A stretch of DNA of 64,000 bases from Rhizophagus irregularis (taxonomy: Eukaryota; Glomeromycota; Glomeromycetes; Glomerales; Glomeraceae). The translations under genes and the position numbers were made by a program. Shown one piece after another: positions 29,373 to 60,695 of this stretch. The first letter of the stretch is position 1. Every line of letters starts with the position of its first letter. The notes beneath the pieces are model-generated. The model worked only from the letters and a program-made list of their open reading frames with translations. It had not been told where the DNA came from and did not search any database. The stretch is from NCBI RefSeq assembly GCF_026210795.1, contig NC_089435.1, positions 496,001-560,000 of the forward strand. The letters are read 5' to 3'.

Positions 29373-31700
29373 GCCCACAGCAAATACTAAAATAGTATAT
29401 AAAATTTGACGTCGTATACAAGATTACGTGAGAAATTATTGCAAACACATGTTTACTGATTAATATCTATTTTTTATACTACGGAGTTCACATGTTTATA
29501 ATATGACTCACCATGGTTAAGTGATACATGATTAAAATATAAAATAGCCACTTTTTTCTCTTATTCTCTTTAACTCTCTCTCCTTTCATATTCCTTCTCG
29601 CCTTTCTTTTTCTTTTATTTTTCTTGTTAAGTATGGTAATAGGTAAGGTACAACCAACTTCACACCTCATTTTAAACCGTAGGTACGACCAACTCCACGT
29701 TAAAAACTTTAAAAAAGTTAAAACCATACTTGAACAAATTTTTTAATAAAATTGAGTAGAGAAACCTGTGTTTATTGCTCGAACGACTTTCCCACATTAC
29801 GTATATATACGTACGTATTTTATGTATGTATGTACATAGTACGTATTGTGTATATATGTAAACCAAATAATTAGATGGGGGAATGAGAAAGCTTATTTTT
29901 GATTTTTACAAAAATAATTTCTTTCTTGTTCTGATGCACATGTGCATTATTTGTTTTATTTGTTTTGATTTTACGTACATAATTTTCTTTTATAATTTTC
30001 TTTCTTGTTTTTAATGCATGTGTGCATAAGTAGTTGTATCTGGGGCCAGAACATAACTAAAAAAACACAGTTTACATATAGAATTTGTCAAGTTGTGAAA
30101 GTTATTATATTATTTATCTATATGTCCGAACGTCTCTGCTCAATTTTTTGTTCTTAACAACCCAAATATTATTATTATTTTTTATTTAATCCTATTAATT
30201 ATAAACTGGTTGTATTAAGATTACAGGTAAGTGGTTTCTTTTTTCCCTGAACGAAGCTTGCCACCTCTACGTGGTGTTCAGGAGTAACAGTTGTATGTTT
30301 ATAACTGGCCAAGAGCAAGCAATATTTTATTTTAAATATTTTTGGATTTTTTGCGCCATTTTGTATTGAATATCACGTAAAAATGTTTATTCATAATATT
30401 ATTCATAATATTAGCGTCATGTTGCGTATAAAATCGTAAAAATCAAAGGGAGTTGTAAAAAGAAGTATTTAGATTTTCAAAGTTTCGGGTCGTGTTACAG
30501 TTTGACCCGACCCGATTGAATTGGAAACTTGGAGATAATGGCGTCACAACTCTTTTTTTTAAAAAAAAAATCACTATTGAAGTTTAATTTATCGAAAATA
30601 TATTAAGTTATTAATATATAGTTTTTAAGATGTAAATATTACTAAAAAAGAAAATTTTTTATTGTTTAATAAAGATTTAACAAAAAACTTTAATATTGCT
30701 TTTAATTTGTAGTATAGTCAGCACAATTATTGCTAATGACAAAAAGTTGCTTTTTGATTGCACATTTCTGGTAGATGATCTGAATTTTTGGACCACGAGA
30801 AACCATCAAAGCTGCTTTATCGGATGATTTTACTGAAGGTGTCACTAAGACTTGGAGACAATATAATGGAACCTGTAAATTATAAGTTTTATAAACTTCA
30901 AAGATCACATTCATATTTTTATACCATTACTTCTCGTTTTTACTAAAAAAGATTTGTGCGAACGTAATAAAATAAAAGATCTTGCGCGAGCATAATATAT
31001 AATGTAAATTTAAGTTTGATTAAATAAATTTGAAATATTTATATTTTTTACACTATGAAAATTATGTAATTTTTTCTAAAACCATGGATATTACCTAACC
31101 TGATGAACATTATTACGATATTTTCATAATTTTTTCATACTTTATAATTGTTTTTACAAATTTAAGAAATCAAAATTAAATGAAATAAAATCAAAATTTA
31201 AAAACATTAACATCTAGAAAAATAATGATTTGAACGTTTAAATTTCTTTTCAAAAAAAAAAACACTTATAAATATATAAGATATTCTGTATTTTTATTTA
31301 TTTTAAAATATATTAAAAAATATTAAACAAAAAATAAAACTAAAAAAAAAATTAAGAATTTCTAGGAGAAAAGAAAAGAAAATATTTAAATTAACTAGAA
31401 ATACGGGCATCACATGAAACCTACTGTACAGTATATAACTTCACAAAGGTTACTTAAATAAATGAAATCTAATCATCACGAAACACCTGTTTAAACATAA
31501 TCACACGATATTATCTTGTTTCATGATTAGTAAATAATTAGGTCAATAATTATGAATACATTATTGAAATGACTCAGAATAATTCTTTTAATCCACTATT
31601 ATAATTTTTACTTACCGATTAATCAAAAGCAAAATTATCAATAAAAGTAATTTAGAATATTATATTTTTTTAGTATAATAACTATATTAATAGATAATTA
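29373..31700. other. Intergenic, no gene recognised
   Basis: No supported coding frame. Two loosely related copies of a TTTCTTTCTTGTT...GCA...TGTGCAT segment occur at about 29920-29950 and 29998-30030. A 70-codon minus frame at 30702-30914 lacks motifs. Confidence 0.4.
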
Positions 31701-35077: not shown

Positions 35078-35893
35078 TCTTCAGGCAGGATGAACGATCC
35101 CCTTATATCGTATCTTGTTATATAAAATCAAATAATAATTTTATATTGATAAAAGTGGTCGTGGTCCTTAATTTATTTATTCGAATTCAATGGATTCAAT
35201 GATATTATCGTTCTGGAAACGAAAATGAAACTATTTTGTAAATATTTAGTATTTACAGTGTCATGATACCGATGCCAAGAATATACTAACACACAAACAT
35301 AACTATTTTCCTTTATTTGGTTTTAACCATTAATAATAGCACACTCATTATTTATTAGGAAAAATAAAATATGGTTAATTATCTTTCATGAAATAAATAA
35401 CCTGGTCCCGTTCGAATAAATAACAAATAAATCAGAAACAAATTTATTTAGCTAGTTTCTCCGGCTTTTTTTGATAAATATATACTGTAGTTCATAGTAT
35501 CATTTTCTTTATATCAAAGCGACTCCAAACATCTATTGACTGATATTTTATATTTTATGCAGATACTTTACAACGGACGTCCTTAACGTACAGTTGGGTG
35601 TACAATTTTAACGTACAAACTAACCCAGTTATGCACTTGCACGTGATAGAGTTAACGTTAATTCCGGTGTTAATATCGTACACCCTCATTGTACAATGAA
35701 AATTTGTATCGTACGGCAAAAAAAAAAATTTTTTTTTCTATTCCTAATCCCGGCTAGATTCAATTAATTCTATTGTTAGTTTATCACGTGGAACATAACC
35801 AATAAAAACCACTTTGTTCAAGTATATGTAGATCAACCAAATTATGGCGCGACGCGTTTCTCTTTATTACGAATAACTTTTACAACACTTATT

Positions 35894-38387
35894 ATGAATT
35901 CTTGGAATCGTTATTTTGATGATATTCCTGTTAATAACTGGTCTGTTTTCCAATTTCATAAAAATTGGATCGATGTTCACAAAAATGAACCTGAGAAACT
36001 AATTTATAGCAAGGCTATGGACACGCTTATTAAAAGCCTCCGCGCGATTATTAATCGGAGCGCGGATCTCTCAAAAATCTGGAAAGCTAACGAACTTTTA
36101 GCCAAATGTCAGGCAAGTACTTTCTCCGTATAGGAAATGTCCTCCGCAGTGATCTTTTAGTTGACTGCGGTTGTCCACGACAAGGAAGACACAACTTTTA
36201 GTTGTCCTTCTGAAGATCTTTTAGATCGTTGTGGTTGCGACGTCCATAACAAGGAAGACGTAACTTTTAGTTGTCCTTCTGATGATCTTTTAGATCGTTA
36301 TGGTTAATATATTAATAGCATTTTTTATTTTTTAACGTTAATGGTACGCTAAAAGCATTTTAAATATATTAATAGTATTTTTCTTTTTTTTTGTATCAAG
36401 AACCAGAATCATCGTAAAGCAGGAAGCAATATAGATAAATTATGGCTTTGTGTTGAAAAAACTTTTCAAGAAAAGAATATTAACGCGGGAACGAACTGCA
36501 TACAGCTTGTTTCTTGCGAAGGCGTCAACATTAGTAATGTTGGAGATAAACGGTCTTTGGCAACTCCGATAACTGATAAGCACCTAGGTATATATTATTT
36601 AGTTTTTTTCAGTGCCTTGAAATTAACCAATTAGATAACAAATATAATAAATATTAAATTCCATTATTAAATAGGTATGTTATTATTTATAGTTATTCAA
36701 TTTATTGAATATTACATTAAAGTAGATTTTGAAACGGAAGATAAGGAAAACTCATATAAACGCCGACGTGAAGATCTGGATAACGTAAACTTTCTTTATG
36801 ATGAAAAAAATACTAATGAGGAGGATGAATTAGAAAAACATGCCGAAGAGACCATCCAATATAATGGAAAGATATGGATTGTGGGTAGCACGAAGATCAA
36901 TGTACGTGATGCGTTAACAAAATGGCAAAAACGAAAAGACCGACCGCGCACCGAGTAATTATTTCTTATAATATGTTTAAAATGCATTATGTTTATACTT
37001 GATATGTTTATATTGGAAAATTTTAGTCTAGCATTTTACGATATTATAGATGTTACTCCAGGGTCAAATAGTGACTTTATACGATCCCAGCCTAATGATG
37101 CAATATATGAGATGAAGCAATTTGGATCATCAGAAGAGCCATCTATCGCGAATGATGTGAAAGAATTAATTGTTAAATTTATTAAGGTATATGTGGTCTA
37201 TTCTTTGTCTCATTATATACAGTACAATTTAATCAAACCCATGGGTTGTTTAAAATTATAGCATAATTATTGGATGCCTTTTTTTTAAATATTCTACTTA
37301 ATTTAATAATATAGGCAAACGATTTTCGCAAGGTTGTCGATGAGAACTATGTTGAAACACGAAAAAACGATACTCTGAAATTTATATGGGACTTTGCGAA
37401 TCTTCTGTAAGAATAAGATAATTTAGTCTTTGTTTTTTTTTCGAAGTCTCACATCCAAGTTCTTTTTCTTAGTGCGGAATCTTTTGAAAGAGACAACGAC
37501 CTTACAGACTTTGATTTGTCTGAACTAGCATATCGAGAAATTTTTCTGGCACCTCTCATTCGTAGTTTGTTCCGTGGAATGCATCGGGAGATGCGCATTT
37601 TTTTGTGAGTATACTTAAAAGTTTGCTTAAACTTGATCTATTTTTAATGAGTATATCCATGCAGCGGTGAGAAACATTTATTCGCATCATCTGAAGAACT
37701 TAATCTCGAAAAAACTGATAAAGAATCTCGTGAAGTTGGACGAAAAGTTGATATCATTTGGTCTTTAAAGTCAACAGACCTTGAATTTACTGTCGGTGAA
37801 GTCAGTGGACCACCAAACCAGCGCAGCCATCCACGCTTTTTCAGTGATAAATTAAAGATCGCTAAGATGTTGAAAATCATAATCAATAGGATTGTAAGAA
37901 AGCATTGTGGTACAGGTGTGAAACTTAGCTCGTTAAAACTATACGGATTACAAATATATAGTAAGTGTTAACGTATTTGAAAATGATCCATGTTGCATAA
38001 GAATTTTATTATTAAATTTTCTTTTATATCAGATAATGAAGTAATTTGCTATGAATTGTCAGTACCCTTTCGAGGGTTATATATCTTCCGCGAAGTTCTT
38101 CGGTCGAAATTGCCAACTAATAAGGTTGAATTGGCGTTAATATCACGATCCATACCAACGTTGCTCAAATTCAAGGTTTGTTCTTTTTATTTGTTCTACA
38201 CCAACCATCTCTTACATCTAACGCACCTAAAAAAATTTTATTATATCACTATTATCAGGAGTTGCTCGAACAGAGTCAAAAAAGTCTGAAAGATTATATT
38301 GTGGACGCATACATTATGTCAATAGATTCTGGTGAAAGCGCAAACCAGTTTATCACGTTTACGAAACAGGATAAAAAAAACAAGTAG
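35894..38387 (+). CDS. Gene X: nine-exon protein, about 529 aa, candidate PD-(D/E)XK nuclease-like domain
   Basis: Exons: 35894-36112, 36401-36587, 36723-36954, 37027-37186, 37315-37406, 37473-37604, 37665-37960, 38033-38175, 38259-38387. All joins keep frame. Intron 1 appears to be GC-AG (CAG|GCAAGT), because the next exon is open only in phase 0; the others are GT-AG. Exon 3 could instead begin near 36675 in the same frame. The N-terminal half is helical and charged (KRRREDLDNVNFLYDEK). At about residues 367-395, GRKVDIIWSLKSTDLEFTVG followed by EVSGPP and then DKLKIAKMLK shows the D...E...K layout of restriction-endonuclease-like folds. The E is followed by V-S-G, so the classical ExK is not exact. 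Function is not established. A P450 remnant lies convergently downstream, and truncated copies of X occur at 44.7, 49.2-50.4 and 50.6 kb. Confidence 0.8.
36113..36310 (+). repeat. Tandem repeat inside intron 1 of gene X
   Basis: Two and a half units of about 66 bp, each with GATCTTTTAGATCGTTGTGG and ACTTTTAGTTGTCCTTCTGA, both of which contain short self-complementary stretches. The same array is present in the X pseudogene at about 49960-50150. Confidence 0.8.
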
Positions 38388-38865
38388 CCGCCATAATATA
38401 GAAAGTGTTTTAACAAAACCTGTAACAGAAGAGCTTTATTATTTTATTAATTATTTAATTTCTTTATAACTACGTGATATTAAAATGTAACACGACGGTC
38501 AAGTTTAATCGATTTTTCTTTTTGTAGTCAAAAAAATAATAAAGCGTTTATTTGACACATATCGGGTTCGTATAAAATGACTACTGTACGTCTGTACCTA
38601 CTGTATATGTGGTGGCGTGAGTATAACCACCAAGACTGCACAAAAATTTTAAATTTTTAAGTTCAAAAATAATAAAAATACTGAAATAAATAAATTTAAT
38701 CTTAAATAATTTAGTTATATAATTCGCCAATAATCAAAACTTAACCTGTAAATATCTGAATGGCAACAGTTGTTTACGAGTCGCCGCGGTATATAAATTT
38801 ATCTTTAAAATAATATAAGAAAGTCCATTTCTCTGTTTAATCTCAAATAATAACGATGAAAAATC
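38388..38865. other. 3' flank of gene X
   Basis: AT-rich convergent spacer between X and the P450 remnant. A block near 38570-38640 (TATAAAATG...CTACTGTATATGTGGTGG) recurs near 44560-44620 (complement) and 50938-50990, marking the duplicated module. Confidence 0.5.
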
Positions 38866-38869
38866 AATT

Positions 38870-39670
38870 TCTCGGTTGAATTTCAACTAATAATTCGACA
38901 TAATCAACCAAAACACCGACTTTCCCAAACAATAAAGCTATCTACTGTTATACATAAACAGTACACGGTAGGGATTGGGAACGACTCGCTTGATCCGTTC
39001 CGGTTCCTAACCGATTCTATTGAACGAATCGACTTGAGCTTAACTGATCATATCAAAAACTTATCGGAACCGATTCGGAACCGAAAGCATCGAACCAAAA
39101 GGAACGAATCAACTCAAACCGCTCAACCGCGAACCTTTTCCATTCTAATGTTGCAATGAACACATGATCATAACGGGGTGACATTTAGGTTTCGATTAGT
39201 GACCCATGATACTACTACCTTGCTAATCATTTTTAATAAGTAAAATTATGTTCCGCAGAATAACCTTGGTAATAAATTATAGATTTACGGATTAATTTGG
39301 ATAGTTCTTTAATTATATTTCTTCAACAATGATGTTGAGAATTTAACAGATATAAAAAATTTTTATAATATTAAAATTTATTTGTTAAATTTTAAAAATA
39401 GAGGCTGAGGGAAGTTCGGGGAGTGTCATTATCAGTGTATCAGTGTAATAATATCAATAATATCCAATAAGTTAGGGATGTTAATAACAATTCCATTAAA
39501 GGCTGATCATTGTAAGGATCTATTATAAATAATGTGCGCTCTGCGCTACAAAATTTCAACCAATTTGTCATCCTGATCGATAAATCACACTTATTCGGGA
39601 TTTCGTACTAATTATTGAATTTGTCAAAGTTTTTAAACCACATGAAGTCATATCAGATATGCGCTCTTGC
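38870..39670 (-). pseudogene. P450 remnant: last codons and upstream region only
   Basis: On the minus strand, about 38950-38880 reads VDYVELLVEIQPRN and a stop, nearly the same as the P450 C-terminus VDCFELLVEIKPRN. About 39470-39660 (GGGATGTTAATAACAAT, TGATCATTGTAAGGATC, GAAGTCATAT..GCGC) matches sequence upstream of the P450 copies at 42.1-42.3 and 52.06-52.34 kb. Almost all coding sequence between is gone. A G/C-rich GAACCGA-type stretch (38970-39130) lies in the gap. Confidence 0.65.
38970..39130. repeat. Degenerate GGAACCGA-type repeats
   Basis: Repeated CCGTTCCGGTTCCTAACCGA and GGAACCGATTCGGAACCGAA motifs in both orientations, within an otherwise AT-rich stretch. Confidence 0.6.
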
Positions 39671-42476
39671 ATATGAAAATAAAAATAATAATGAGCGCCA
39701 TTATGAAATATCGCGCTTATATACATTCAATCACATCCAATTTTCATCATTGCAGTATCAATGAGCATTTTATATGAAATTTCCTTTAAATCTCAATTAC
39801 GATACTGAGCGATTGATTCCACACGGTTCTACTGTAAGGTTTATAAGTATATTTTTGAGTCTTGGTATTGTAAAGTATATTAATTAGGATGAACCGATGA
39901 AGATTTATTTTAATTATTATTTTTTTATAATAATAAATTGCATATACTTTATTACCGTATAAAAATTCATGTTACATATTATTTTCGTGACCTTTTTGCT
40001 ACTTGGAAATTACCACGCTTCTTCTTATTTGAAACTGTCATATAACACTCATCACAATAGTGTTAATATATTTCATTCACGCTAACTTTTTCAGATTCAT
40101 CAAATTCATCTTCTGGTACTTTTCCACACTGAAAGCAAATGTCTTCAAATAAACCACTTGAACAATAGGAAACTTCCAGTTTTAGAACGAAGCAAAACAC
40201 GTACAATTATAGATTTTACTTTTTATAAAAAAAGTGGCGGAAGATAGATTTACATAGATTTAACAATTTATCTTTGTTTGTGTAATACAAGATATATTTG
40301 TACAAAATATAATACATATAATATGAAAAAGAAAAAAAAATCCCCGTCAATTTTAAAATTTTATGTCACGAATATCTAAAAATTAATTTTGCCCGGCCTA
40401 ATCTAATGAAAAAAATTTTAAATTTTTATTATTTATTATTATCCTTCAATAAATTTATTTCGTAATTATTGTATTGTAATGTTTTGATATTATTGTGATA
40501 TGCCTGGTATGACTTTCCAATTTTTTTTTTTAAAAAAAAAATTCAAACCGAGACGGAATAATCCTTATTACAATTTATTGGTAGATATTTTTGTCAGAAA
40601 TATACGGGATCCCATTTTTATCTAATTTAAAATTAATTATAATTCGTCATTCTTGATTTTTGACAGATTATAAAAGAATAAAAGTACCGTATTATTAATC
40701 GAATATTAAAATAGATACACTTTGACAGAACATTTTTACTTTATCAATTTATGTCATACATTAAATTTGTATCAAAAAAATATATGATAATAATAAAACT
40801 TATTTTTTATTGACGTAAAAATTTATAATTTATTTGCATCCAAAATTATTTTAATAAATACTTATTGATTTGAATGTTCATCTCTTGACAGACTTGACGT
40901 TCCAAGGTATTATTATTATCATGTCGTTCTTGTCTTAAAAGGCACGATTTTCATACAACGTTCATCCAATGGAATAAATGAAGCCTTATTACTTGCATTC
41001 TGCTCAAGTTGAATAAGGAATAGATATGCGAATGATAATCATCTAATTTTCAAGAAAATTCTGTCATAAAAAAAATGTCGTCATATAAATATCAAAAAAT
41101 TTGAAAACTATTGCATAACTTACTGTAAAATTTGTTTTAGGTCAAGAATTTCCTTCGCATTATCATTGTTTATGACCATACTTCTAAAATCAATTGATTA
41201 CATGGATGAGCATAAATTATCCGCAATAATTGTCATTATATTGTTTCGTGCAACGGCGAGATACTTTGCGTTAATAGAAAAAGGTTTTTTTAGTGGGAAA
41301 AAAAGGAAAATAAGGTCTTTCGGATGAATTAATTGTGTATATTTGACGCTCATTCAACATTCAGGACTATTCTATTTTCTTAATTTTTATTGTACACCTC
41401 TTGGGACTAAAAAAGTATGGTGTGATTATAAAAATACTATATGATGTGACTAAAGAGGGGTTTTTTTTTGATAAGTTTATTAGTAACATGGAGCTAACGT
41501 AAATGTGCTTATAAGGAGGGTGTGATTATATCTGAGTGTGCCTATAAAGGAGAGTCGACTGTATTTTATTTTGTTGTTATATTCTCTGTAAAAATTCCAT
41601 GATTTTTCCGTGAATGTATCTTTTTCACAGAATTTTTACGAAAGTCACGGAGAAATAATGGAAATATTCGGATAAAAATTTTTTATAGGGATTAAATTAC
41701 AAAATTAATTGAAAATTTTTTCGCAACCTTGGAAGTATAAAGACGAACTATCAAGTTTTGAATCAGACTTTTCTATTTAATATGTTATAAAAATTATCTT
41801 TTTTATCACAATTATTTAAATTATTTAAGTTTTTAAAATAATAAATAATTTATTCGGTTATTTTAATAGAAAAAACCAACAATAAAATTTTATAATGTGA
41901 AAAGGATTATAAGAAATATTTTAAATAAATGTTTCTTCATTTTTTTTTTATTATAATATTTTTAAGTTATAAAATGTTATTTTTTTTCTTGAAAAAAAAA
42001 AATCGCGAAAAATCTGACCAATAAAATTCGGTAAATCACGTTACCGAAATTTTCTTTAGCGTACATTTCAATTGAAAGTAGTTCATAGTGACGCTTAATA
42101 TTATTAATTTTAAATAAGAGCGCATATGACTTCATATGTTGTGCACAAAATATTTACGAATAATGTGCACTCTAATAATAATTTATGTCACACTATTTTT
42201 TGACCGACATCACCTATTAGAGTTCGAATTTGTTAAGGAGCTTCCCCTTTTCTCATAATCATAATTTGTAGATCCCTTACAATGATCAGTTTTTACAAAT
42301 AGATAATGAAATATTCGTTTGCTCTGATTGGATGGCCCTTTGACTATCTTTATCGGAATATATTTATTTATATACTGATAATAATGATACTTTCCAAACT
42401 TTCTTCAACTTTCACTTTTAAATGATTTATTTTATCGTATAAAAACATATAAATATCCCTGAAAAAATTATCTGAG
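39671..42476. other. Intergenic, mostly featureless; right end is the P450 5' flank
   Basis: No gene recognised. From about 41550 to 42330 the sequence is also found, inverted, at about 52060-52680, so it belongs to the duplicated module. It includes TATATAAAT-like sequence near 42448 upstream of the P450 ATG. Confidence 0.5.
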
Positions 42477-44189
42477 ATGATTATTAACCTGCTTGAGAAT
42501 TTTACAATTAATGATTGTGCTTTGTTGTTAAGTGCAGCATTAATGACATATGTGGCATATTATTATTATACATATTTTACTCGTGTTAACCCTTTACCTG
42601 GCCCAATCCCAATCCCATTCATTGGTAATTTGCCCCATATTCATTGGCAGTTTAAGGGAGATGCTCAAATGTTTTACGATTATTGTCACGAGAAATATGG
42701 TGACATATATGAAATTTATTCAACTTATACAGGCGTACGGTCTATAGTTTTATGTCGAAAAGAATATATTGAAAATTTTTTATCAGAACGAAGTGCACAT
42801 TGGACGAGATTTCCCAATTTCAAAGGGCCAGATGAATTGGGAATTGAAGGAAAAGGATTAGTATTCAATAATAATTTTAAATCGTGGATATATAATCGTC
42901 ATTTTTTTTTACAAGCCATTATGTCACCGAAATTTACTGATGAAGCTATTGATTGGACAAATGAACGTTTCAATAAATTAGATAGTTATTGGAATAAATT
43001 ATTTCTTAAAGAAGAAATTATCAAAGAAAATAAAAATATATTTAATATGTTTCAATGGCTTAATCAATACTCATTTGATATGATTATTAAATTATTGACT
43101 GGTAAAAGACCTGATTTAATGAAAGCTTATTTTGATACTTTCGGTGATGAAAAATCCGGTCCATCAGCAATAGTCTGTGATTCTGCAAAAATAGTTCAAG
43201 CACTTCGCATATTTCTTGCAGATTATGCAATATTTTATTCCATTTCTCCTTTCTTACGACATTATTTTCCATTTTTTAAAAATAAAGCAGATAATTTACT
43301 TCAAAACATGAAGTTTGTTAATAAAAAACTTGATGCAATTATTAAGAAACGTAGACAAGAAATTGAAGATATACCGTTGGATGAACATTTACCGCATGAT
43401 ATATTGACATCAATGATTATTAAAAATACACTTCGTGATGTTAATTATATCGAAGCTGGTAAAGCCACGAAAGCTATGACTGATACTGAAATTCGCGGTA
43501 ATTTATTTGATGGACTTCTTGGCGGATGTAACAAAGTAAGCAACTTTTTTAGAAAAATCATAAATGCGATGCTTTAATTTGAAATTATTTTAATCATTCA
43601 TTTTCAAACATATCAAACATAGACTGCGAATATGCTTTCATTCATTATTTATTATATTTCACGTAATCCAGATGTGAAAAAGAAAATGCTAAAAGAAATT
43701 GATAGTATATTCCAAGATGATAAAATACGACCAATCACAAAAGATGATTATTATAGTTTAAGCTACTGTGAAGCAATTGTAAAAGAAGTAGCTCGAATTC
43801 TCCCAGCTATGCGCTCATTTTCAAGATATACTAATAAATCTGATAAAATAGCAGGATATCAATGGCCAGCTGGCATAACGTTTATAATTGATATTAAAGC
43901 TATTCATAATAAAGATGATTATTGGGAAGAACCTAATAGATTTAATCCTGATAGATGGATGGTTGAAAATTTTGAGCCAAAGAAGAATTCTTTTATTATG
44001 TTTGGTGGAGGTTTAAGATCATGTCCAGGAAGAAAGTTGGCAATGATTGAATTAGTTTGTACAATGGTTTTATTGTTTAGGAAATATGATATTAATTTAG
44101 TAGATACGAATTCTCCTATTAAAACTAGGAGTATCGCTATTTTTGTTGATTGCTTCGAATTACTAGTTGAAATTAAACCAAGAAATTGA
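42477..44189 (+). CDS. Cytochrome P450 monooxygenase, two exons, about 541 aa
   Basis: Exon 1 is 42477-43535 and exon 2 is 43623-44189 (GTAAGC...TAG, phase 0), joining LLGGCNK to TANMLSF. The N-terminus has a membrane anchor (CALLLSAALMTYVAYYYY) and a proline hinge (PLPGPIPIPFIG), so it should sit in the ER membrane. Other landmarks: I-helix GGCNKT in place of the common AGxDTT, ExxR as EVAR at about 408-411, FNPDRW at about 460-465, and the haem loop FGGGLRSCPGR with the iron-ligating Cys at about 487. Length and motif order are normal for a fungal class II P450 supplied by P450 reductase; substrate unknown. Asn in place of the acidic I-helix residue and Lys in place of the first Thr may alter oxygen activation. 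A truncated copy lies at 51205-52053 (minus). Confidence 0.93.
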
Positions 44190-44589
44190 TTTATTGAATT
44201 ATAATTATTATTAGCTAGTTAAGATTAAACGTAAAAATAAGTTCATATATCGCGGCGGCACGTAAATAACCGTCACCATTCATAGAGATAATTATGTTGA
44301 TTATTGGTGAATTATGTAATTTCGTTAGGGCAGTGACATATATTACATAATATTACTTTAATATAAGAGCTTACCCCTATTACCCCTAAGATATATATAT
44401 TAATTACCTTTATATAGTAATATATGTAACCTAAGATTTATGAATACCTCACCCCTTAAAATATTACCTAATATAATGCCACGGCCCTTATTTAAAGTTA
44501 AATTTGTCATTTAAATATTTTTATTATTGCTGTACTATATAAATTTTGACAATATAAGTATAACCGTGCAGTCATGTCGGTTATACCCA

Positions 44590-44812
44590 CCACATATACA
44601 GTAAGTATTTTATATGATGCGTTAAAAATCACGAACATGACATGTGCAAACAAACGATGGTGGCCACTTGCTGTTTCGTAAATGTGATAAACCGATTTGC
44701 GCTTTCACCAAAATCTGTTAATATAATATAATCTTTCAGATTTTTTAGTCTCCATTCAAGCAACTCCTGATAATAGGTTTATATAATAAAATTTTGTTAG
44801 GTGTGTTAAAGA
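44590..44812 (-). pseudogene. Last exon of a gene X copy, decayed
   Basis: On the minus strand from about 44812, TTATTATATAAACC...TATCAG|GAGTTGCTTGA and then AAATCTGAAAGATTATAT...TTTGGTGAAAGCGCAAATC match intron 8 and exon 9 of gene X (38230-38380), with deletions and no open frame. It lies convergent to the P450, the same arrangement as X and the P450 remnant at 38-39 kb. Confidence 0.72.
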
Positions 44813-45649
44813 GATGGGCTGATGTAGAAAGAAAAGAATCAAACCTTGAATTTGAGCAACGTTGGTATGGATGTGATATTGTCGCCAATTCAACCTTATT
44901 AGTTGGCAGTTTTACCGCAGAACTTCATGAAAGATATGACATGTATATAAAGGCACCGACAACTCATTTCATTATCTGATATATTAAAATTGATAAAATT
45001 CAAATATGTTAATACTTACTATATATTTGTAATCCGTATAGTTTCAACGAGTTTAATTTTATACCTGTACCGCCATGCGTAAGACGGAATAAATCATATA
45101 TCAGATATTCTTAATCTGAATTCGGGATCTGACAAAAATCCGGATATCAGGTGATGAATTATCAATTTTTTTTATTTTGCTAGATATAATTTATTTCTGG
45201 CGCACATCTGAAATCTGTGTCACGCCACAGCTCTTGATCACGTGACACATCCAATCAGATTATCTCATTATCGTGTTGTACTGATAAATATCCTTAGAAA
45301 AAAACGAAGTTAAAAAAAAAGAGATGAAAAAAAAGCAGTATTTTTCTTAAAATATTATTATAAAAAAATTATTTTATTACTTTTATAATAAAGACATTTA
45401 AGAAATTATTCTTTTACACTTTATTAACTTTTAATAAACAAATAAACAAACTATTTTTAAAGAAAATAGTTTTTAGTAAAAACGTGAATTATTCTATGAA
45501 TATTTGAATCAGCTTGATACTAGGTATTTTTTACATCTGAATAATGATCTCAAAGCTTGGCGCAGCCAATTGATTGTGGCGCAACAAAAGTCATAAAAAG
45601 AAATTTTTTTTCTAATAATAAATTGCCATTAAAAGTTACTAGCTAGGTG

Positions 45650-45815
45650 TAATTTTTGAATTTACTTAGAGCGACAAAGGCGGTTTTAAATATCGTTATC
45701 GATTTATTTATTCTTTCGCCAAATCTATTTTTTAAAAAATCATCGTCAAAATCGACATTCAAAACCTTCTTCCGAATCCTAAGTAAACTTTCAGAGCAGG
45801 TGAAAATACCTCCAT
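45650..45815. mobile_element. Degenerate copy of the MITE core seen at 9.2 and 56.1 kb
   Basis: TTTACTTAGAGCG...GGCGGTTTTAAATATCGTTATCGA pairs with TCGACATTCAAAACC...TAAGTAAACTTTCAGAGCAGG, the same inverted core and spacing as the other two copies. The outer ends were not found. Confidence 0.6.
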
Positions 45816-45929
45816 TATAAATTTATAAGCTTTTATGCTAAATAAAAAAATCTTAAAGACCTTTTTTGAAATCACCACGAACCTGGCCGGATATAGGTCA
45901 AACTATAGATTTTGATTATATACAGTAAC

Positions 45930-48925
45930 TATTATCTTTTCTGCCGCTTATGGTTATTTTTACCATTACTATCTTCTTCAAGTCTTTTATTAGGTTCGAT
46001 TACCCTTTGTTCTGCTGATTCTTTACGCGAGCTTGCTGAATACCTTGTAATCCATCCTTCAACTGTTTTTATTTCTGGCACTTCATTTTCCCTTCTTCAG
46101 CTAGCTCTTTTAGCTATATTACTATTTCTTTTGCAGACATTCGATCAATTTTGTTCACATTCCCTGCTAAAAAAACCTTTCTAAGTAAGTTTTCACCTTC
46201 ATTGATATGCATTTTCCAGTGCCTTGTTGACCATATTTATGGCTACTTTTGAGCGCTCATCCACTTTTTAATGGAAAATTTTCGTTTATAACTAACAATG
46301 AATTGCAGTTATCAGTGATTTGTTCCTAAGCCGTAATATAGATATTATACCTATATGATGGTTTTTACTCTCAAAAGTGGTCTTATCTGAAATATTTACT
46401 AAAAAGATTAGGTTTCTTACGAACATAAATAGAACATTCACTACCGTACTTTCAGTCCGAGCAATGGGAAATTCCATACTAAATTTGGTTTCGTATGGGC
46501 GGAAAAACTAGGAGTTGACGTATTCAAGGGTTCTTTGATCAGATTTGTTGAGAATAACACCTATGTGCGGTAATAATACCTGAGCCTCCTTAGGCCACTC
46601 AAAATAAGATGATTTGTAATGCCTGGTATAGTTTTAACGAGCACTTGATTACGTTTTGGATCCAGATGAGCAACGGAGGTTCCGCCCAAGTTTTTTATAG
46701 CAACATCTATTATCTCACCTCCATCTAAATAGTAACAAACTCTTACTTATCTCTTGCTATTTAAAATATAATTATTTTAGCGAAAAAAAAATTTCAAATA
46801 TAACAAGTCCTTACTCATTAATTAATATAATGCTTTAATTATAGGATGATTTTCAGTTCAAGATGTCCAATTTACACGCTTGTTCATGATACAGTAGATA
46901 TTGATGGATGTTCCTCTTTTCGGTGAAATTCTGCAACTTACCTGCGATTGATGCGAATCAACGCTGGGTTTTCATCCCAGGTTCAAGGAAGTTCCATGAA
47001 CATCGATATTATACCATTGGTTCCAATTTGCAACAATGGTCATCAATTCCGAATTGTGGTAACGTTCACCATTATCAGAAAAGATTTTGATCCACTTTGG
47101 TTTTGGGTCTAGCGTTTCGGCAACAGCATCAAAGAATGATGCTGTAAACCAAGTGTCTTGCTTGGTAGATCAGTGGTCAAATGCTTGCACATTAAGCTGC
47201 AAATCGTCACGTTTTGTAAAAACCAAAATCGTATGAAGATTCCATCCTCGTTTTCCAAAGAATTACGCCTTGGTTTCCCGGGCACTTTTAGGTAAAATTC
47301 TCGTTTTGTAATCGCATACCAATACCGTTCTACCATCATCAAGTTCTAAAAGTTTGCTTTGAAGTGATTCGAACAGACCTTTCTTGCCTGGTAAGCAAGA
47401 AAATAGTAAAGGTTATTTCGTGACTCCTCAATTGTAGTTCGAAGATTCTTTGGAAGTATAGGTAGCTAAATGTTCGATAAGCACGAACAGTTGATCGCGG
47501 ATCTTATGTTCTTAATTACATTCCCCAAACACGTACAGTAAACAACGGTTAATTATATCCGAATGCGAGATTGTGCTTCTATATTTACAGCTATATTTAC
47601 GGATCTTCATGGCGTAACTTCTCAAGTTCGTTCATCAATGTATTAATGTTTCTTGAAAATTATTAGATTTATTTTATTAGAGAATATTATGTATATTTAT
47701 TTATAATAAATTCATTAAATGTAACAAATAAATGAATATTTTACCCACGATTCCTGTTTTACATTTGACTTTACCAAATTTATCAATGTATCAAACACTT
47801 CGTAGCAATAATCACTGCAAATATTATATAATCCGCCCAAATCTTTTCGATACACATGGCGACCACTTGCTAAGCGTGCGATAAGTCGCTTCGAATTTTG
47901 TCAGAGGGATTCTTTGTTATCCTTTAAATATAGTAACGGCAGGTTAGTTTTCGGATCAACGCGTTATGAGCTCATAGTGACATTATCTTTGTCAGAAAAA
48001 AACTCTTGAATTCTTTGTCTTTTATTTCAGAAATATAACTTCGTTTTAACTCTCGCGGGTCATCCTGATCATTTGCACGTCTATATTTCTTTGTGGCATT
48101 AATTAAATCGTTTGAAGTCTAAAAAAAATTAGAATAAATATTATTTTTCATGAAATAACGAAATAATTGACGAATTGTTTTTTATGTATATCAGCAAAAT
48201 TTCTTGTATTTCCCTATGTCCAAATTTTTCCGCGATAATAGAGAATTCGTTGCTTTCTATCCAATCCACATTTATTGACTCTAATCGTTTCTTTAAAACT
48301 ATTCTAAAATTCATCAATTATACTTTTCAATCGATTATTTTCTTTTATAGATCCATTTAGTAGATTCTTGTATTATAAAAGTAGCTATCGACTTTTTGGC
48401 AAAAATGAAGTTGTTTAAATTTAAAAAAAACATACTTTCGATCCTTGCTTTTAGTAGGGAGTTAACATATGTACAACTACGCTTTTCATCATCTTCGTTA
48501 TAGCCGTTTAAGATGCATCATAAATTCTATAATACTTGACTCTTGCTCTTTCCACTCAGTAAAAAACGTATACTAATCAATTCCAACAACGGAAATTTTA
48601 CGCTTTAGATTCTTTCAATTTCTTGGGTCATTAATTCAACATCATTCTATTCATTCACATTATATATTGGAGATTACTGTTAAATTTTCAATGCATTAAT
48701 TGTAAAATGATGCTTAATTCCAAATAAAATATTACCATTATAATTTTTCGGAATTCCCATTTTCTTCCAGACTTTAGTTGGTGAAACATCACTGTAATAT
48801 GCGATCCTTTCTTTCTTTTGGAATACTTCTATATGACAATATTTGCTTTCAATTATTTGGATAAAAAGACTTTGCTTTTCTCGATATTTGTGCATGAAAC
48901 TTGTTTGATATCCTATTTGAATCAC
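45930..48925 (-). pseudogene. DDE-type transposase pseudogene, heavily decayed
   Basis: Reading leftward from about 48925, an N-terminal block (SPTKVWKKMGIPKNYNGNIL) is followed by a middle part near 47.8-47.9 kb (LIARLASGRHVYRKDLGGLY, NICSDYCYEVFDTLINLV). The catalytic region is at about 47.35-46.95 kb: LDDGRTVLVCDYKTRILPKS, then DTWFTASFFDAVAETLDPK, then KIFSDNGERYHNSELM. CDYK and SDNG are the likely first and second acidic residues. The region 46.75-46.65 kb reads EIIDVAIKNLGG and AHLDPKRNQVLVKTIPG, and the C-terminus at about 46.15-45.95 kb reads NVNKIDRMSAKEIV and LKELAEEGK. Each block has stops or frameshifts. Similar proteins recur in Rhizophagus genomes; I do not assign a superfamily. 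It interrupts a gene X copy. Confidence 0.7.
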
Positions 48926-49242
48926 TTAAATTTATAATCAAAAGAGAAAGCTTGTCAACTGTTATCTTAAAGGACAAAACAAAACATCGGACAATAGTTC
49001 TTGGGTAATATTTTCATAAAATTGAAGTCCTGAATATCGTGTTTTATTATTGAATTTATAGCTTTTGAAGCAGATAAATAAAATTTTGAAGTTACATCTG
49101 ACTCACAGGCATAACCTGGCTTTATAATCAAATTTTAACCACGTGTACCGATTATTGCACGGATCAAGAATAAATCTAACAATCATATCAATCGCGACAA
49201 ATGGCTCTTCTGATGATCCGAACGCTTCATCTCATATATTCT

Positions 49243-49340
49243 AACCCTAATTCATACCTAATCCATACCTTAATCTCAATTTTATACCCTATCTAAACCA
49301 TATCCTGATCGAACCCTAATCCTAATCAATACCCTAGACT
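49243..49340 (-). repeat. Interstitial telomere-like degenerate (TTAGGG)-type patch
   Basis: The minus strand reads TTAGGG, ATTAGG, TTTAGATAGGG, ATTAAGG, ATTAGGATTAGGG and similar at roughly 6-15-bp spacing. It replaces about 69 nt of exon 4 of the X pseudogene: the sequence on each side (TCTAG and AATATATGAGATGAAGC) is contiguous with exon 4. Confidence 0.7.
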
Positions 49341-49959
49341 AAAATTTTCCAATATTAAGTTATCAACATCTTGCATTTTAAACATATTACTGTATATCAA
49401 ATAATTACTCGGTGCGCGGTTGGTCTTTCGTTATTGCCATTTGTTAACGCATCACGTACATTGATTATTTTGTTACCACAATCCATATCTTTCCATCATA
49501 TTGAATTCTTCTCAGAATTGTTTTCCAATTCATCCTTGTTACCAGTATTTTTTTAAATCATTAAGAGAGTCTTCTATACGTCGGCGTTTATATGAAGTCT
49601 CCTTATTTTCAGTTTCAAAATCTATTTAGCATAATATTCAATAAATTGAATAAAACAAATCATAAAAAGGCACTGTGAAAAAGACTAAATAGTACCAAAT
49701 TATCGGAGCCCCTAATGGTCGTTATCTCCAACATTGCTAATGTTGACACTTTCGCAAGAAACAAGCCGTAAGCAGTTTGTTCCCGTGTTAATATTCTTTT
49801 CTTAGAGTGTTTTTTCAACTCCAAGCCATAATTTATCTATATTGCTTCCTGTTTTACGTTGATTCTGGTTCTTGATACAAAAAAAAAAATAAAAAAAAAT
49901 ACTATTAATATATTTAAAATGCTTTTAGCGTACAATTAAAAAAAATGCTATTAATATAT

Positions 49960-50150
49960 TAACCATAACGATCTAAAAGATCATCAGAAGGACAACTAAA
50001 AGTTGCGTCTTCCTTGTTATGGATGTCGCAACCACAACGATCTAAAAGATCTTCAGAAGGACAACTAAAAGTTGTGTCTTCCTTGTCGTGGACAACCGCA
50101 GTCAACTAAAAGATCACTGCAGAGGACATACATTTCCTATATGGAGAAAG
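49960..50150 (-). repeat. Second copy of the gene X intron-1 tandem repeat
   Basis: Complement of 36113-36310, with one 4-nt insertion and only a few substitutions. It contains the same ~66-bp units. Confidence 0.85.
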
Positions 50151-50599
50151 TACTTGCCTGACATTTGGCTAAAAGTTCGTTAGCTTTCCAGATTTTTGGA
50201 AGATCTAAGCCACGATTAATAATCGCGCGGAGACTTTAAGAAGCGCGTCCATGTCTTGTTATAAATGTTTCTTAGGTTCATTTTTGTGAACTTCGATCCA
50301 ATTTTTATGAAATTGAAAAATAATTAACAGGTATATCATCAAAATAACGATTCTAAAATTCATAGTAAGTGCTGTGTAATGAGTTCAGAACGCGTCGCTC
50401 ACGAACACTGAACTAGTTTTAGTGATCTACAATGCTTGTTTTATTGGTTATGTCTCATGTGATTAATTATAAACCAATACAATTTATTGAATAACGTGAC
50501 AAATAACTAATGAAATTACCGTCTGCGCCACCAGATTGCTCTGATTGATCGAATTAAGATATATATGATTTATTCTTTGTATCATTGTATTAACATACC

Positions 50600-50695
50600 T
50601 AACAAAATTTTATTATATGACTATCAGGAGTCAGTCTAAAAAACACATTTATGAAACAGTACAAAAAAAGCAAGTGGCCACCACAGCCGAGGTCG
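50600..50695 (+). pseudogene. Fragment of gene X last exon, third copy
   Basis: TTATTATATGACTATCAG|GAGTCAGTC and later TTTATGAAACAG...AGCAAGTGGCCACC match the intron 8/exon 9 region of X, with a large internal deletion. It faces the truncated P450 at 51.2-52.1 kb, repeating the convergent X/P450 layout. Confidence 0.65.
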
Positions 50696-50704
50696 AAGAG
50701 ATAG

Positions 50705-50820
50705 TGGAAACTTGTCCAATTTCCATGGTGTACGCAAGACTTCAATGAAGTTTGGAAATATTATGGAAATATTATGCAAATTGGACAAGTTTCAATCGCG
50801 CACATCAAGATTTCCCTAGT
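50705..50820. repeat. Small inverted repeat (GGAAACTTGTCCAATTT)
   Basis: GAAACTTGTCCAATTT near 50708 and AAATTGGACAAGTTTC near 50783 form a hairpin with an AT-rich loop. It is absent from the equivalent position at 44.6 kb, so it was probably inserted. Confidence 0.55.
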
Positions 50821-51204
50821 GGAAGCCATATCACTTCAAATATTTTAACAAATCTATAACAAAAATGAGAATTGTTTATGGAAGTTAAACTTTTTATATT
50901 ACACTATTATTAAATTTTTTTTCAAGCGTTCGTTTTAACGTATAAAATGCTTACTATATATGCGGTGATATAACCGAAATGACTTCACGGTTGTATTTAA
51001 GAACTTTTAAGTAACAACAATAATAAAAATACTTAAATAAATTTTAATTCATCAATAATCAGCGGTATATAAACTTATTTTTACAAATAATATAAGAAAG
51101 CCAATTTCTTTGTTTAATCTCAACTAATGAAAATTATGACAACAACAAATCAATTTCTTGGTTTAATTTCAACTATTAATTTGACATAATCAGCTTTACA
51201 TTTA

Positions 51205-52053
51205 ATGAGCGAATTCATATCTACTAAATTAACATCATATTTTCTAAACAATAAAGCTATCGAACAAACTAATTCAATCATTACTAACTTTCTTCCTGGA
51301 CATGATCTTAATCCTCCACCAAACATAATATAAAAGAATTCTTCTTTGGCTCAAAATTTTCAACCATCCATCTATCAGGATTAATCTATTAGGTTCTTCC
51401 CAATAATCATCTTTATTATGAATATCAATTATAAACAGTATGTCAACTGGCCATTGATATCCTGCTATTTTATCAGATTTATCAGTATATCTTGAAAATG
51501 AGCGCATAGCTGGGAGAATTCGAGCTACTTCTTTTACAATTGCTTCACAGTAGCTTAAACTATAATAATCATCTTTTGTGATTGGTCGTATTTTATCATC
51601 TTGGAATATACTATCAATTTCTTTTAGCATTTTCTTTTCACATCTGGATTACGTGAAATATAATATATAATGAATGAAAACATATTCGCAGTCTATGAAT
51701 TAAAAAAAAAAGAATGATTAAAATAATTTCAAATTAAAGCGTCGCATTTATGATTTTTCTAAAAGTTACTTACTTTATTAACTCCAAGAAGTCCATCAAA
51801 TAAATTAACGCGAATTTCAGTATCAGTCATAGCTCTCGTGACTTTGCCAGCTTCGATATAATCAACATCACGAAGTGTATTTTTAATAATCATTGATGTC
51901 AATATATCATGTGGTAAATGTTCATTCAATGGTGTATCTTCAATTTCCTGTCTACGTTTCTTAATAATTGCATCCAGTTTTTTATTAATAAACTCCATTT
52001 TTTGAAGTACGATATCTGCTTTATTTTTAAAAAATGGAAAATAATGTCGTAAG
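51205..52053 (-). pseudogene. Truncated cytochrome P450 copy
   Basis: It matches the P450 at 42477-44189 from about residue 260 onward. KKLDAIIKKRRQEIED, RDVDYIEAGK and LLGVNK (two residues lost from GGCNK) belong to exon 1. EIDSIFQDDKIRPITKDDYY, EVARILPAMRSFSRYT and YWEEPNR belong to exon 2. A frameshift after EEPNR destroys the haem loop. The 5' ~780 nt of coding sequence are missing: at 52053 the match passes directly into P450 upstream sequence, a deletion of about 0.9 kb. Confidence 0.9.
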
Positions 52054-52683
52054 GGATGTTAATAACAATCAAATAGTCATCCAATCAGAACAAACGAATA
52101 TTTCATTACAAATTTTCTTGTTTGTACTTTATAACTGATAAAGACTGATCATTGTAAGGGATCTACTGTATAACGCAATTATGATTATAACAATGAGAAA
52201 AAGGGGCTATGGTTTTGAATGGACTTTTGACAAATTCGAACTATACTAATAGGCGATTTGTCGATCAGTTTGAAAATTCAATTACGTAGGGCAAATTATT
52301 CATTAATGTTTTGCGCAACATATGAAGTCATATGCGCTTTTATAACGTCAAAAATTTTCGATAACGTGATTTAACGAATTTTATTGGCCAGATTTATTTC
52401 GTACAACATTTATCTTTGAAAAATTTTCATAAAAAAAAATATAAAGAAACACTTTATAAAATTTATTGTTGGTTTTTTTTATTAAAATTAGCGATGAAAT
52501 TATTTATTATTTTAGAAATTTGACAATAGTTCTTTGTATTAATTATAATAATTGCAATAAAAAGATAATTTTTATAATGTATTAAATAGAAAAGTCTTAT
52601 TCAAACTTGATAGTTTACCTTTATACTTCCAGGTTGTAAAAAAAATTGTATTTAATATATAAAAAAAGCGTTTTTATATTCAC

Positions 52684-53395
52684 AACAAAGTAAAATATAA
52701 TAAAATTAAGAAAATAGAATAGAAAAACTATAATAAAAGAATAATATAAAATTTCAAAGAAATTACTGGAAATAAACACAAAACACGCTAATACTAACAG
52801 GTGAGGCTGTGAAAATATTATTTTTATCGATATTATTATTAGATTAATAGTACAAAGTCACGTTACCGAAAATTTTTTTGTGGTGTTCTAACTGCGCGAA
52901 TCCAATTTCTATCACTGCAGTAGCAACTTTAAGATTATTAATTAAAAATAAAAAAAAAAATGAAAAAGAGGATATAAAAAGATTAGTCCGTTGATTTTAT
53001 TTGAATCGCATCATTGCTGACTAACGTAATTCCGATTTGTGCTTACCACCACAGCATCTCACTGAACCCAATCTAAACCCAAAAGATAAAAAATATCGTT
53101 ATACATGTGCCATCAAAACTCGCCATCCGATTTTGAAGTTAATGAAGATCAATTTGATGATAAAATATTAATTTTAATTTAATAGTTAATTAGAAAAAAA
53201 AATCCCAATTTTGCTGATCAAGCCTAAAGAATAAATAAAATTAATTTATAATATTTACTAAAAAATGCAGCGGCAATGCATTTTTTTAAACATTTAATTA
53301 CTTATAATACCTATAGTAATAATAATTATCAAAAAAGAAATATTCAATAATTCTTTTTCTATTTTTTTTTTAACACCAAATCTGGCATAGATTGA
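52684..53395. other. Intergenic, nothing recognised
   Basis: AT-rich, no coding frame. The duplication shared with 41.5-42.3 kb fades out at its left end. Confidence 0.4.
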
Positions 53396-57335: not shown

Positions 57336-57889
57336 AATTAAAAATCAAAAAAATTTAATAAGCCAAAAAAAAAGCAAATACATTTTTTTACCAAACATCA
57401 TACTCACTTGAATTCAAGTGTTTTAAGATTCAAGTTGAGTAACAGTTGTAGAATTAATTATTTATCTAACCTAATTCAAAGTAACCTAAAATAAAAAAAT
57501 TTTCACGTCAATTAAAAAAAAATTACTTTATATAAATTATAAATAATTACTTAAGCGGGAGTTCTATTAAATTTCCGATACAATCATTTAAAATTTTCCA
57601 ATTTTTTTATTTTTTGCAGTATCCGCAACTACTTGATCGCAACATCCTGATTTTGGATCATTATAAAAGTTTAAAATAGCTAATTTTTTATGGTATTACA
57701 TATTATGACATTACGTGATTTGTTATATAGATCATAATTTAGTTTATAAAAAAGAAATTGTTTAATTTTATTAAATCATATATAACTTATAAATAAAGTG
57801 AATTATTCAAATTACAAACTAAGAAACCTGCAAATATTGCTACTCTAAACCTTAGTGTTTAAATAATTCTAAATAACTAATAATAAAAT

Positions 57890-60073
57890 TTAATTTAAAA
57901 GATAATTAAGATCCATCTTACCTAAAAATTGGTTATTATAAGTTAATATTAATAATAGTACGCAAGAAGATATTCTAAAAATATACTTACAGTCAGAAAC
58001 TTTTAATTCAGCCTGTTCTTCTGAATGAAAATTGGGATCATCATCATCTAACTTTAAGATTAAAATAAAATTGTAAGTATCCTATTTTATTACACGTATA
58101 ATTCTTAAATAATTTTATAATAACGAAATAAAATTTCTTAGATCTAGAAATAATTACCTTTATCATTATTATCTAACTTTATTTTTTTAGGGTTAATAGT
58201 TAAATCATCTTGTCCTTCTACTTTTAAGTAATAGAAAATCAATTATTTTTACTTACAGCTGACAAACATTTCATAAAATAACTCATTACCATTAAAATAA
58301 ATTCTTTTATTAGATTCGTCTTTTACTTCTTAAAAAAAAAAATAAATAAACTGTTAAATTATTTCAATTAAGAAATTTCAAAATTTTGTATTAATTATTA
58401 CCTGTAATCATGCCATCTTGTAAATCAAAGTCAAATTGTATACTATGATAAGCTATAAAACAAACGTTATAAATACTATACTTTTCCATATATAATTTGT
58501 TTTGACAAATATTGATGATTACCTTCTTGTTCTTCTATTAAATAAAAATATAGATGACCAGCTATTATGATGTTAACTAATCTTGATAAATAAATTTTTT
58601 TTACCTTTTGTTGCATTTCTTGGTTCAGGCAAATCTTTAAAATAATAAACTCTGCTACTAGAATTTCTAAAAAAGGAGTTAATAGAGTTAGTAGAACTAA
58701 TACTAAAATTTGTATTTAATTGAAAGTTGTCTATGCTTGTAATGTTATTTGTCTGTTGTTCATCATTTTCATTAATAAGATATGATCTATATAAAGATTT
58801 TATTTCATCATAAAGAGTATCAATATCAGGTCTTTTTGATGGGTCAGCATCCCAACATTGTTCCATTAGTTCTTTATATTTTAAAGGAGTTCCCGGTATT
58901 ATTCTTGGCCTCATTCCATTTATTATTTTCAGTGTAAGATCATAATTATGTTTATAAACAAAAGGTGGTTGTCCGGATGAGATTTCCCACATAAGCATAC
59001 CAATACTATATACATCAGACGCAAAAGAATATTTCATTTTTACAATAACTTCAAGAGCTATATAAGGAAGATTTCCATATATACTATTTAATGGTTTATC
59101 AGCTGGTCCACAAAACCCAAGATCGCTTATACGAACATCTATTTTACCAAATAATATATTTCCAGAATGCAAATCTCTGTGAATTGCATTTTCTTTATGA
59201 ATTCTAGATACACCATACAATATATGATAAATAATATGAATTCTTCTTTTCCATGTGAGTTTATTATTATTTTGTTGTAAATATTCTCTTAAATTATTAT
59301 GCAATTCAAACATTACAAGCATATAATTCCCATCTGATGGATCTTTTGTTATACCATAGCATTGAACAACATGACCATATTTGTTACTTATAGATAAATG
59401 AGATTTACACTATAAAAAATAATGGATATTACTATATAGTAATTATTTTAATCACTTTTTCAAATAATTTTAAATTACATACCTCTTCAAACCAACTTTT
59501 ATTAGCACTTTCAACATTTTCTAACTTTTTGAGTACTACATAATGTCCTTCATATCTTTTTAATTGTTTTTCTTTTGAATCCCATTCATCATAATGTCCA
59601 TCAATCCAATATGCTTCATAAATTTCAGAACATCCACCTTTAGTTAAATATTCAATATTTTGTAATTTATCATATGGGATCCATTCTACTATTCTATTTG
59701 GTTTAAGTGTTTCCATTTGACATTGTTGTATTAAATTATCAATATCATTATTTCCAGATGTCCAGTTTGAAAATTTTGATTTTAAATAATTTCGAACACA
59801 ATGTTCACAGTATAATGTAGCTAAACATTCATCATGACAATTTTCACAAATTCTTTTTGTTCCTTCATTATAAAAAATTTTATAATAGTCAAATTCTTTA
59901 TTTAATAATTTCACTGCATTTGATTTTTCATCTTTTGTAAGAGATTTGTCATCAAGAATAGTTTGTTGCATAAATTCAAGTCGTTTATCTATGGTATCTT
60001 GAGTATTATAATCTGTTAATGCATATGCTCTATGACATGCAGCAAAAACTATGTTTTCTCGAATAGAAGTCAT
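57890..60073 (-). CDS. TKL-type protein kinase, copy A, eight exons, about 549 aa
   Basis: Exons (minus): 60073-59483, 59409-58605, 58534-58523, 58452-58402, 58328-58290, 58220-58158, 58047-57991, 57921-57890. The N-terminal region has CENCHDECLATLYCEHC at about residues 75-91. The kinase domain has LTKGGCSEIYEAYW, VVLKKL, HRDLHSGNILF, ISDLGF and SDVYSIGMLMWE. The usual APE at the end of the activation segment is ALE here (NLPYIALEV), while copy B and the 20.7-kb gene keep APE. That Pro/Leu change could weaken activity, though catalytic Lys and both Asp are present. Exons 3 to 7 are phase 1 at both ends and multiples of three (12, 51, 39, 63, 57 nt). The tail includes AYHSIQFDFDLQDGMIT and VEGQDDLTINPKKIKLDNND. 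Confidence 0.88.
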
Positions 60074-60267
60074 AATGTGAGATAAACATAAATTTTTTTT
60101 TTATTAAAAATGAAATTTATGGATTAACAAATTCCGGAGCGAGTTTCACAAAATTTCGTAAACAAAGCAAATATTAATTAGACGAGTTAATTGTCACGCT
60201 CATGCATAATATAAATAAATATTGTACAGTACAGGTGATAAACAGAGTGATGATTAATGTGGTGAAC

Positions 60268-60297
60268 TTGCAGGGGCTGCAGGGGCTGCAGGTGCAT
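60268..60297. repeat. Short CTGCAGGGG repeat upstream of kinase copy A
   Basis: Three to four copies of GGGGCTGCA. The equivalent site in unit B (about 63565-63592) has a changed first unit. Confidence 0.6.
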
Positions 60298-60351
60298 AAA
60301 TCAAAAACGTTCAAATAAAGAATGGTCAATCACGCTATTGAAATTTTAAAT

Positions 60352-60366
60352 CACGTGAGTCACGTG
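60352..60366. promoter_or_regulatory. Paired CACGTG (E-box) motifs upstream of kinase copy A
   Basis: Two perfect CACGTG palindromes, starts 9 bp apart (60352 and 60361), about 280 bp upstream of the ATG. The pair is retained in copy B. CACGTG is a typical bHLH site; binding is not shown. Confidence 0.4.
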
Positions 60367-60695
60367 AACCAAAGAAATAACGAAACAAATTGTAAAAGGA
60401 AAAGATTACGTAATTTGAAAATTTACACACAATATTTGTACGTTTATTATCGCAGTGTAATTGAACAAATTAGTGAGAATTTCTGTTATAACTTGATTTA
60501 TATCAAATAAATCTTCTAAAGTTGATTTATAGACAAATTACAGTTTAGTAAAGTAGTTGGTGCTTCAAATCAAGCGATTATAACATTCGAATAATTATAT
60601 AAAAACGATCTATTGTCGATTAATAAGAAACCATGGTTTAAAGTTAAACAAGTCGCACGCGTGTCCCACTACATCATAACTCTATACAGTATCGT

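Follow-up and report, generated by a model that had tools for sequence, protein, structure and literature searches.

Local duplication, decay and probable gene conversion of a convergent gene X/cytochrome P450 pair in Rhizophagus irregularis

Introduction

A stretch of 64,000 nucleotides of the arbuscular mycorrhizal (AM) fungus Rhizophagus irregularis (assembly GCF_026210795.1, NC_089435.1, 496,001-560,000 of the forward strand; hereafter the window, in whose positions all coordinates are given) contains three collinear copies of a unit composed of two convergent genes, namely a nine-exon gene, here called X, and a cytochrome P450 gene. One intact copy of each gene is left in the window, X in copy 1 and the P450 in copy 2, and the remaining copies are decayed. 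In our opinion, with a probability of about 0.78, this arrangement is the outcome of a local segmental duplication near the original place, followed by decay and by gene conversion between the copies. A segment with X and the P450 as convergent neighbours would have been duplicated at least twice nearby, one of the copies being inverted. Redundancy would then have freed the extra copies to decay by deletion and point mutation, with a large insertion in copy 2, until a single intact X and a single intact P450 were left. Over the same time, non-reciprocal gene conversion would have exchanged short stretches between the nearby copies, yielding blocks of 98-99% identity amid sequence that is mostly 6-25% different. 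The locus illustrates, cleanly and on a small scale, how genes of an AM fungus are duplicated, decay and apparently undergo gene conversion. It serves mainly as a caution against inferring a functional pair from complementary parts that have survived.

Three collinear copies of the unit

The copies were detected by blastn comparison of the window with itself, followed by pairwise comparison of higher sensitivity. X and the P450 are convergent in all three units, and copy 2 is inverted with respect to copies 1 and 3; the order and orientation put forward in the original prediction are thus borne out by self-matches far above chance. Copy 1 spans ~35758-39710, copy 2 runs from ~50492 back to 41367 and copy 3 spans ~50553-52722, all outer limits being taken from short or weak matches. 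Within the genes, blastn aligned X of copy 1 (35882-36572) with that of copy 2 (50375-49700) at 88% identity, and the P450 of copy 2 (43253-44238) with that of copy 3 (52053-51104) at 89%, both with E 0.

The homology is not confined to the coding parts but takes in the 5' flank of X, the spacer between the two genes and the promoter of the P450. The flank matches at 35758-35807 versus 50492-50439 (E 8e-6, sensitive pairwise comparison). The spacers of copies 1 and 2 were aligned by blastn at 38595-38709 versus 44607-44488 and at 38715-38919 versus 44319-44134 (E 7.6e-15), and the regions upstream of the P450 in copies 2 and 3 at 41704-42343 versus 52656-52069, in three pieces; the P450-X spacer of copy 2 (44190-44670) includes pieces common to both copies 1 and 3. 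Such collinear homology outside coding sequence is what characterizes a segmental duplication. Matches ending at the coding fragments, which would speak against a pair copied as a unit, are not what the self-comparison returns: the matches continue into flanks, spacer and promoter. That the pair was amplified as a unit, one of the two options previously suggested, is therefore supported by homology across the genes and their surroundings; the other option, that the pair moved as a unit, found no such support.

It should be considered that haplotypes or repeats might have been wrongly joined, considering that only ~60 bp separate copies 2 and 3 and that the layout is known from the assembly alone. 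However, the copies differ by ~6.5% in the P450 (59/902 sites between copies 2 and 3) to ~25% in the spacer, and each has private deletions and insertions. They are therefore unlike allelic or collapsed sequence, and an assembly artefact is very improbable.

As for the history of the units, we infer at least two duplications. Over the 229 spacer columns common to all three copies, the Kimura two-parameter distances are 0.30 (copies 1-2), 0.25 (1-3) and 0.26 (2-3), and the sites grouping the same pairs number 18, 25 and 24. With distances and site counts so nearly equal, no clear order of duplication emerges.

The P450 gene

As predicted, the P450 gene is intact in copy 2, where it occupies 42477-44189 on the plus strand and encodes 541 amino acids in two exons (42477-43535 and 43623-44189) separated by one intron. 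PF00067 matches the open reading frames (ORFs) of both exons (E 2.9e-22 and 2.2e-39), and the ExxR motif (KEVAR) and the cysteine-containing heme motif FGGGLRSCPG align with those of CYP24A1 and CYP3A4, so that the family match and both motifs expected of a cytochrome P450 are present. The I helix, in the region 43500-43640, reads GGCNKT, versus AGYETT in CYP3A4 and AAVETT in CYP24A1. The acid-threonine pair of this helix is usually required for oxygen activation in P450s; here it is absent, as N-K is aligned with the E-T of both solved P450s, and copy 3 also has N-K. With this pair missing, the copy 2 P450 may not be a classical monooxygenase.

The upstream region of copy 2 that is common to copy 3 covers 41367-42476 (plus strand), with firm homology at 41704-42343 and a 21-bp match at 41367-41387. 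The string CACGTTACCGAAA occurs in it at 42037, as part of the palindrome GGTAAATCACGTTACC, and again at 52859, beyond copy 3; it is possibly a small element or a binding site.

In copy 3, the P450 (51104-52053, minus strand) is frameshifted and truncated at its 5' end, with the loss of approximately the first 258 codons, in agreement with the truncation originally described; its upstream region common to copy 2 lies at 52054-52722 (minus strand). A more extended remnant had been expected in copy 1 (38870-39670). A remnant does exist, but it is limited to the last 18 codons (38867-38920, minus strand; tblastn 61%, E 0.019; supported by the DNA match at 38715-38919) and to promoter scraps on the same strand. 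The latter (39386-39470, 39497-39522 and 39657-39710) are weak but collinear blastn matches to copy 2 (E 0.05, 0.014 and 0.001), the second of which also matches the copy 3 promoter (E 1.5e-4). Between the 18 codons and the scraps, neither tblastn nor sensitive blastn detected any P450 match.

A P450 deletion common to copies 1 and 3, which share GGGATGTTAATAACAAT, was also considered and rejected. Copy 1 retains the promoter part 39386-39470 (E 0.05) that copy 3 has lost, and GGGATGTTAATAACAAT is for this reason more likely a common promoter sequence.

Gene X

The intact X of copy 1, also as predicted, lies at 35894-38387 on the plus strand. The predicted splice model is in frame, lacks internal stops and encodes 529 amino acids in nine exons (35894-36112, 36401-36587, 36723-36954, 37027-37186, 37315-37406, 37473-37604, 37665-37960, 38033-38175 and 38259-38387); intron 1 of its eight introns is of the GC-AG type.

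The gene was described as split in copy 2, and two parts are indeed found, although with different bounds (gene matches at 50375-49183 and 45078-44671) and with ~0.7 kb lost in addition to the ~4.07 kb inserted. The 5' part with its flank (49183-50492, minus strand) is interrupted by 10 in-frame stops over 234 comparable codons and is frameshifted by many indels. The 3' part (44671-45101, minus strand; blastn 45078-44671, E 2.5e-84) comprises the end of exon 7 and exons 8 and 9; it shows no stops in 94 codons, but does contain indels, and 15 bp at 45087-45101 that match copy 3 (E 0.11) may represent a scrap of intron 4. For the equivalent of approximately 37165-37901, sensitive pairwise comparison gave no convincing match in copy 2. 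Copy 3, thought to keep only a tail fragment of X, does keep the tail (50591-50683, plus strand) but also, as revealed by the same type of comparison, 38 bp from intron 4 (50553-50590, plus strand; 84% to 37181-37218, E 3.5e-6).

Comparison of X with Pfam gave no match above the cut-off, NCBIfam gave none, and nothing convincing was found in PDB (best E 0.029). The AlphaFold model of the exon 7 ORF (mean predicted local distance difference test score 43.8) was too poor for use. The block KVDII...GEVSGPP...K may resemble the core of a PD-(D/E)XK nuclease. The exon 7 ORF had no confirmed relatives in viral and prokaryote contig collections, nor had exon 2 of the P450 in the viral one, and neither collection contained an exact 21-base string taken from X intron 1 (0 matches); as both consist, by their description, of contigs from viruses and prokaryotes, the lack of matches says little on fungi.

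That one intact copy per gene survives in the window, and in different units, was also part of the original prediction, and it is correct. The question is whether X and the P450 form a functional two-gene module, with selection keeping exactly one working copy of each. The single intact ORF left per gene and the linkage maintained through duplication would agree with this. However, linked neighbours co-duplicate passively, the genes are convergent and have no common promoter, and 6/9 of the placements expected by chance put the intact genes in different units, so that their complementary survival needs no explanation. The ratio of non-synonymous (dN) to synonymous (dS) divergence is 0.54 between X of copies 1 and 2 (dS 0.28, dN 0.15) and 0.55 between the P450s of copies 2 and 3 (dS 0.10, dN 0.055); such values fit the comparison of a constrained copy with a decaying one, although they prove nothing, and they are silent on a joint role. 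There is no evidence for a functional or a mobile X-P450 module, and we regard the functional one as highly unlikely.

The insert in copy 2

The insert in the copy 2 X (45096-49167, ~4.07 kb) lies, by eye, near the border of exon 4 and intron 4, and is flanked by the 9-bp direct repeat GAATAAATC (45087-45095 and 49168-49176). Nine base pairs is the length typical for Mutator-like elements. Inverted matches are absent from the very ends of the insert and, where present inside it, are short and AT-rich. In four pieces of its minus-strand frames, the only strand scanned, no Pfam match was found; these frames contain text that by eye resembles DDE elements and may be transposase debris.

The insert bears on the idea that X and the P450 are transposed cargo of a transposable element, in a Pack-MULE-like capture. 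The idea would agree with the 9-bp repeat and with the setting, as the expanded signalling families of R. irregularis are linked to Mutator-like elements and adjoin them more often than core genes do, according to the excerpted text of PMC8647823. The insert, however, interrupts the unit and does not flank it, and its repeat may have arisen as a target duplication or may simply belong to X, because the identical string stands at 50567 in copy 3, where there is no insert. Nor was any element found flanking the units, whose ends are only approximate: within 150 bp on either side of these ends, copies 1 and 2 show no inverted match and copy 3 only a 13-bp, AT-rich one. Transposition of the unit as cargo is accordingly rather unlikely, and local duplication, followed by decay and conversion, is preferred.

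Mosaic divergence between the copies

The divergence between the copies is unevenly distributed. When X of copy 1 is aligned with that of copy 2, identity starts at 70% in the 5' flank, rises to 91% in exon 1 and to 98% in intron 1, and is then 86% in both exon 2 and intron 2, 85% in exon 3 and 89% in intron 3; after a poorly aligned exon 4 (59%), it is 86% in the available part of exon 7, 80% in intron 7, 83% in exon 8, 78% in intron 8 and 86% in exon 9. The ~98% block starts ~41 bp within exon 1 and stops just within exon 2. Mismatches affect 6/277 sites of intron 1, versus 17/134 for introns 2 and 3 together (Fisher p 3.6e-5), and a 300-column window with 5 mismatches was matched in 0/5000 shuffles.

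A comparable block is present in the P450s of copies 2 and 3, where 182 aligned columns in a row are identical (reached in 0/5000 shuffles) and the best 250 columns have <=3 mismatches (1/5000 shuffles of the gene alone). Within 43650-44060 (~410 bp), 2/134 third positions differ, versus 16/141 elsewhere (Fisher p 0.001), and the longest run of identical third positions is 117 of 275 (4/5000 shuffles). Since silent third positions are also alike, protein constraint alone does not explain the block.

High-identity tracts that include silent sites and lie within diverged paralogs, as found here in windows chosen after inspection, are those expected of gene conversion, which is probably the origin of the mosaic. 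Conversion is the simplest cause that we infer, because the X of copy 2 is dead and the P450 tract includes silent sites.

Several points weigh against this interpretation. The high-identity windows were picked after the data had been viewed. The comparison is among the paralogs of the window, without an outgroup, and phylogeny therefore does not separate conversion from locally slow evolution. Exon 4 of X aligns at only 59%, so that either other causes also make rates differ or this exon is misaligned. As to the duplication itself, its breakpoints have no clear signature, as the strings common near the approximate unit ends are of only 7-8 bases. Finally, the X block nearly coincides with intron 1, and selection on a structured RNA predicts the same pattern.

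Such selection is possible. Intron 1 (36113-36400, plus strand, in copy 1; 97.8% identical to copy 2 over 277 aligned sites) contains two tandem units of ~69 nt, located at 49956-50110 in copy 2. In each unit an outer stem surrounds two hairpins, the loops being of TTTTA type. Compared with shuffled sequence, the intron folds better (z -3.06, with 1/200 shuffles as good), the core even more so (z -3.35, 0/200). Each copy has two units, and across these four every one of the 69 pair cells counted is intact, with one two-sided change; covariation is weak, coming from 3 distinct rows, and an equal or higher score was obtained in 173/500 shuffles. That intron 1 is in itself a structured RNA, or a structured element that is mobile, with its identity kept even in a dead copy, is an unlikely reading; if it proved real, a structured RNA not yet described would be indicated. 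Gene conversion between locally duplicated copies is still considered the better account.

Other features of the window

An HDV-like ribozyme (RF02682 of Rfam; HDV, hepatitis delta virus) was found at 30246-30320 on the plus strand. It scored 44.8 bits, the gathering score being 44 (E 4.9e-5 in the window), and shows, by eye, a P2-type pseudoknot GCUUGC/GCAAGC. Its presence in a fungal contig was unexpected, and nothing evidently on point was seen among the literature matches listed. At the end of the window, 57660-60695 and 60949-64000 form a tandem duplication of 3.05 kb with 94.4% identity. Both halves match 20680-21972 in inverted orientation (~76%), a region whose ORF at 21380-22189 has a protein kinase domain. 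At the opposite end, a Sel1-repeat gene (291-4076, minus strand) includes a long array of ~108-bp repeats, with Sel1 in the ORF at 291-1784. Next to it, 4185-4545 matches 8121-7763 in inverted orientation (97%); the enclosed segment 5342-6333 is 77% identical to its own reverse complement and has nested direct repeats.

Comparison with known systems

AM fungal genomes are rich in duplications (excerpt of PMC9249182). In R. irregularis, the excerpted text of PMC8647823 reports repeats consisting of transposons and expanded families, occasionally in tandem duplicate arrays, together with many orphan genes without domains. The window resembles this picture in having Sel1-repeat, protein-kinase and BACK-TLD genes, but the units described here differ from the expanded families in being a P450/orphan pair, not one signalling family, and in having one inverted copy. 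Among the literature matches listed, judged by title and the opening of the abstract and with X having no name to search by, no X-P450 pair was found.

Compared with the cytochrome P450 family (PF00067), the copy 2 product is similar in its Pfam matches, its ExxR and heme motifs and, by eye, an N terminus resembling a membrane anchor, and differs in its I helix.

A further parallel concerns the mosaic. In R. irregularis, pairs of ribosomal DNA (rDNA) copies located on reverse strands of one contig were reported to be more alike than other paralogs, and gene conversion was suggested as the reason (Maeda et al., 2018; excerpt of PMC6123716). Both systems thus have opposite-strand paralogs of raised similarity on one contig. 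However, the rDNA pairs of that excerpt are >70 kb apart and encode rRNA, while the X/P450 copies are protein genes separated by a few kb, most of them decayed, and their similarity is limited to blocks.

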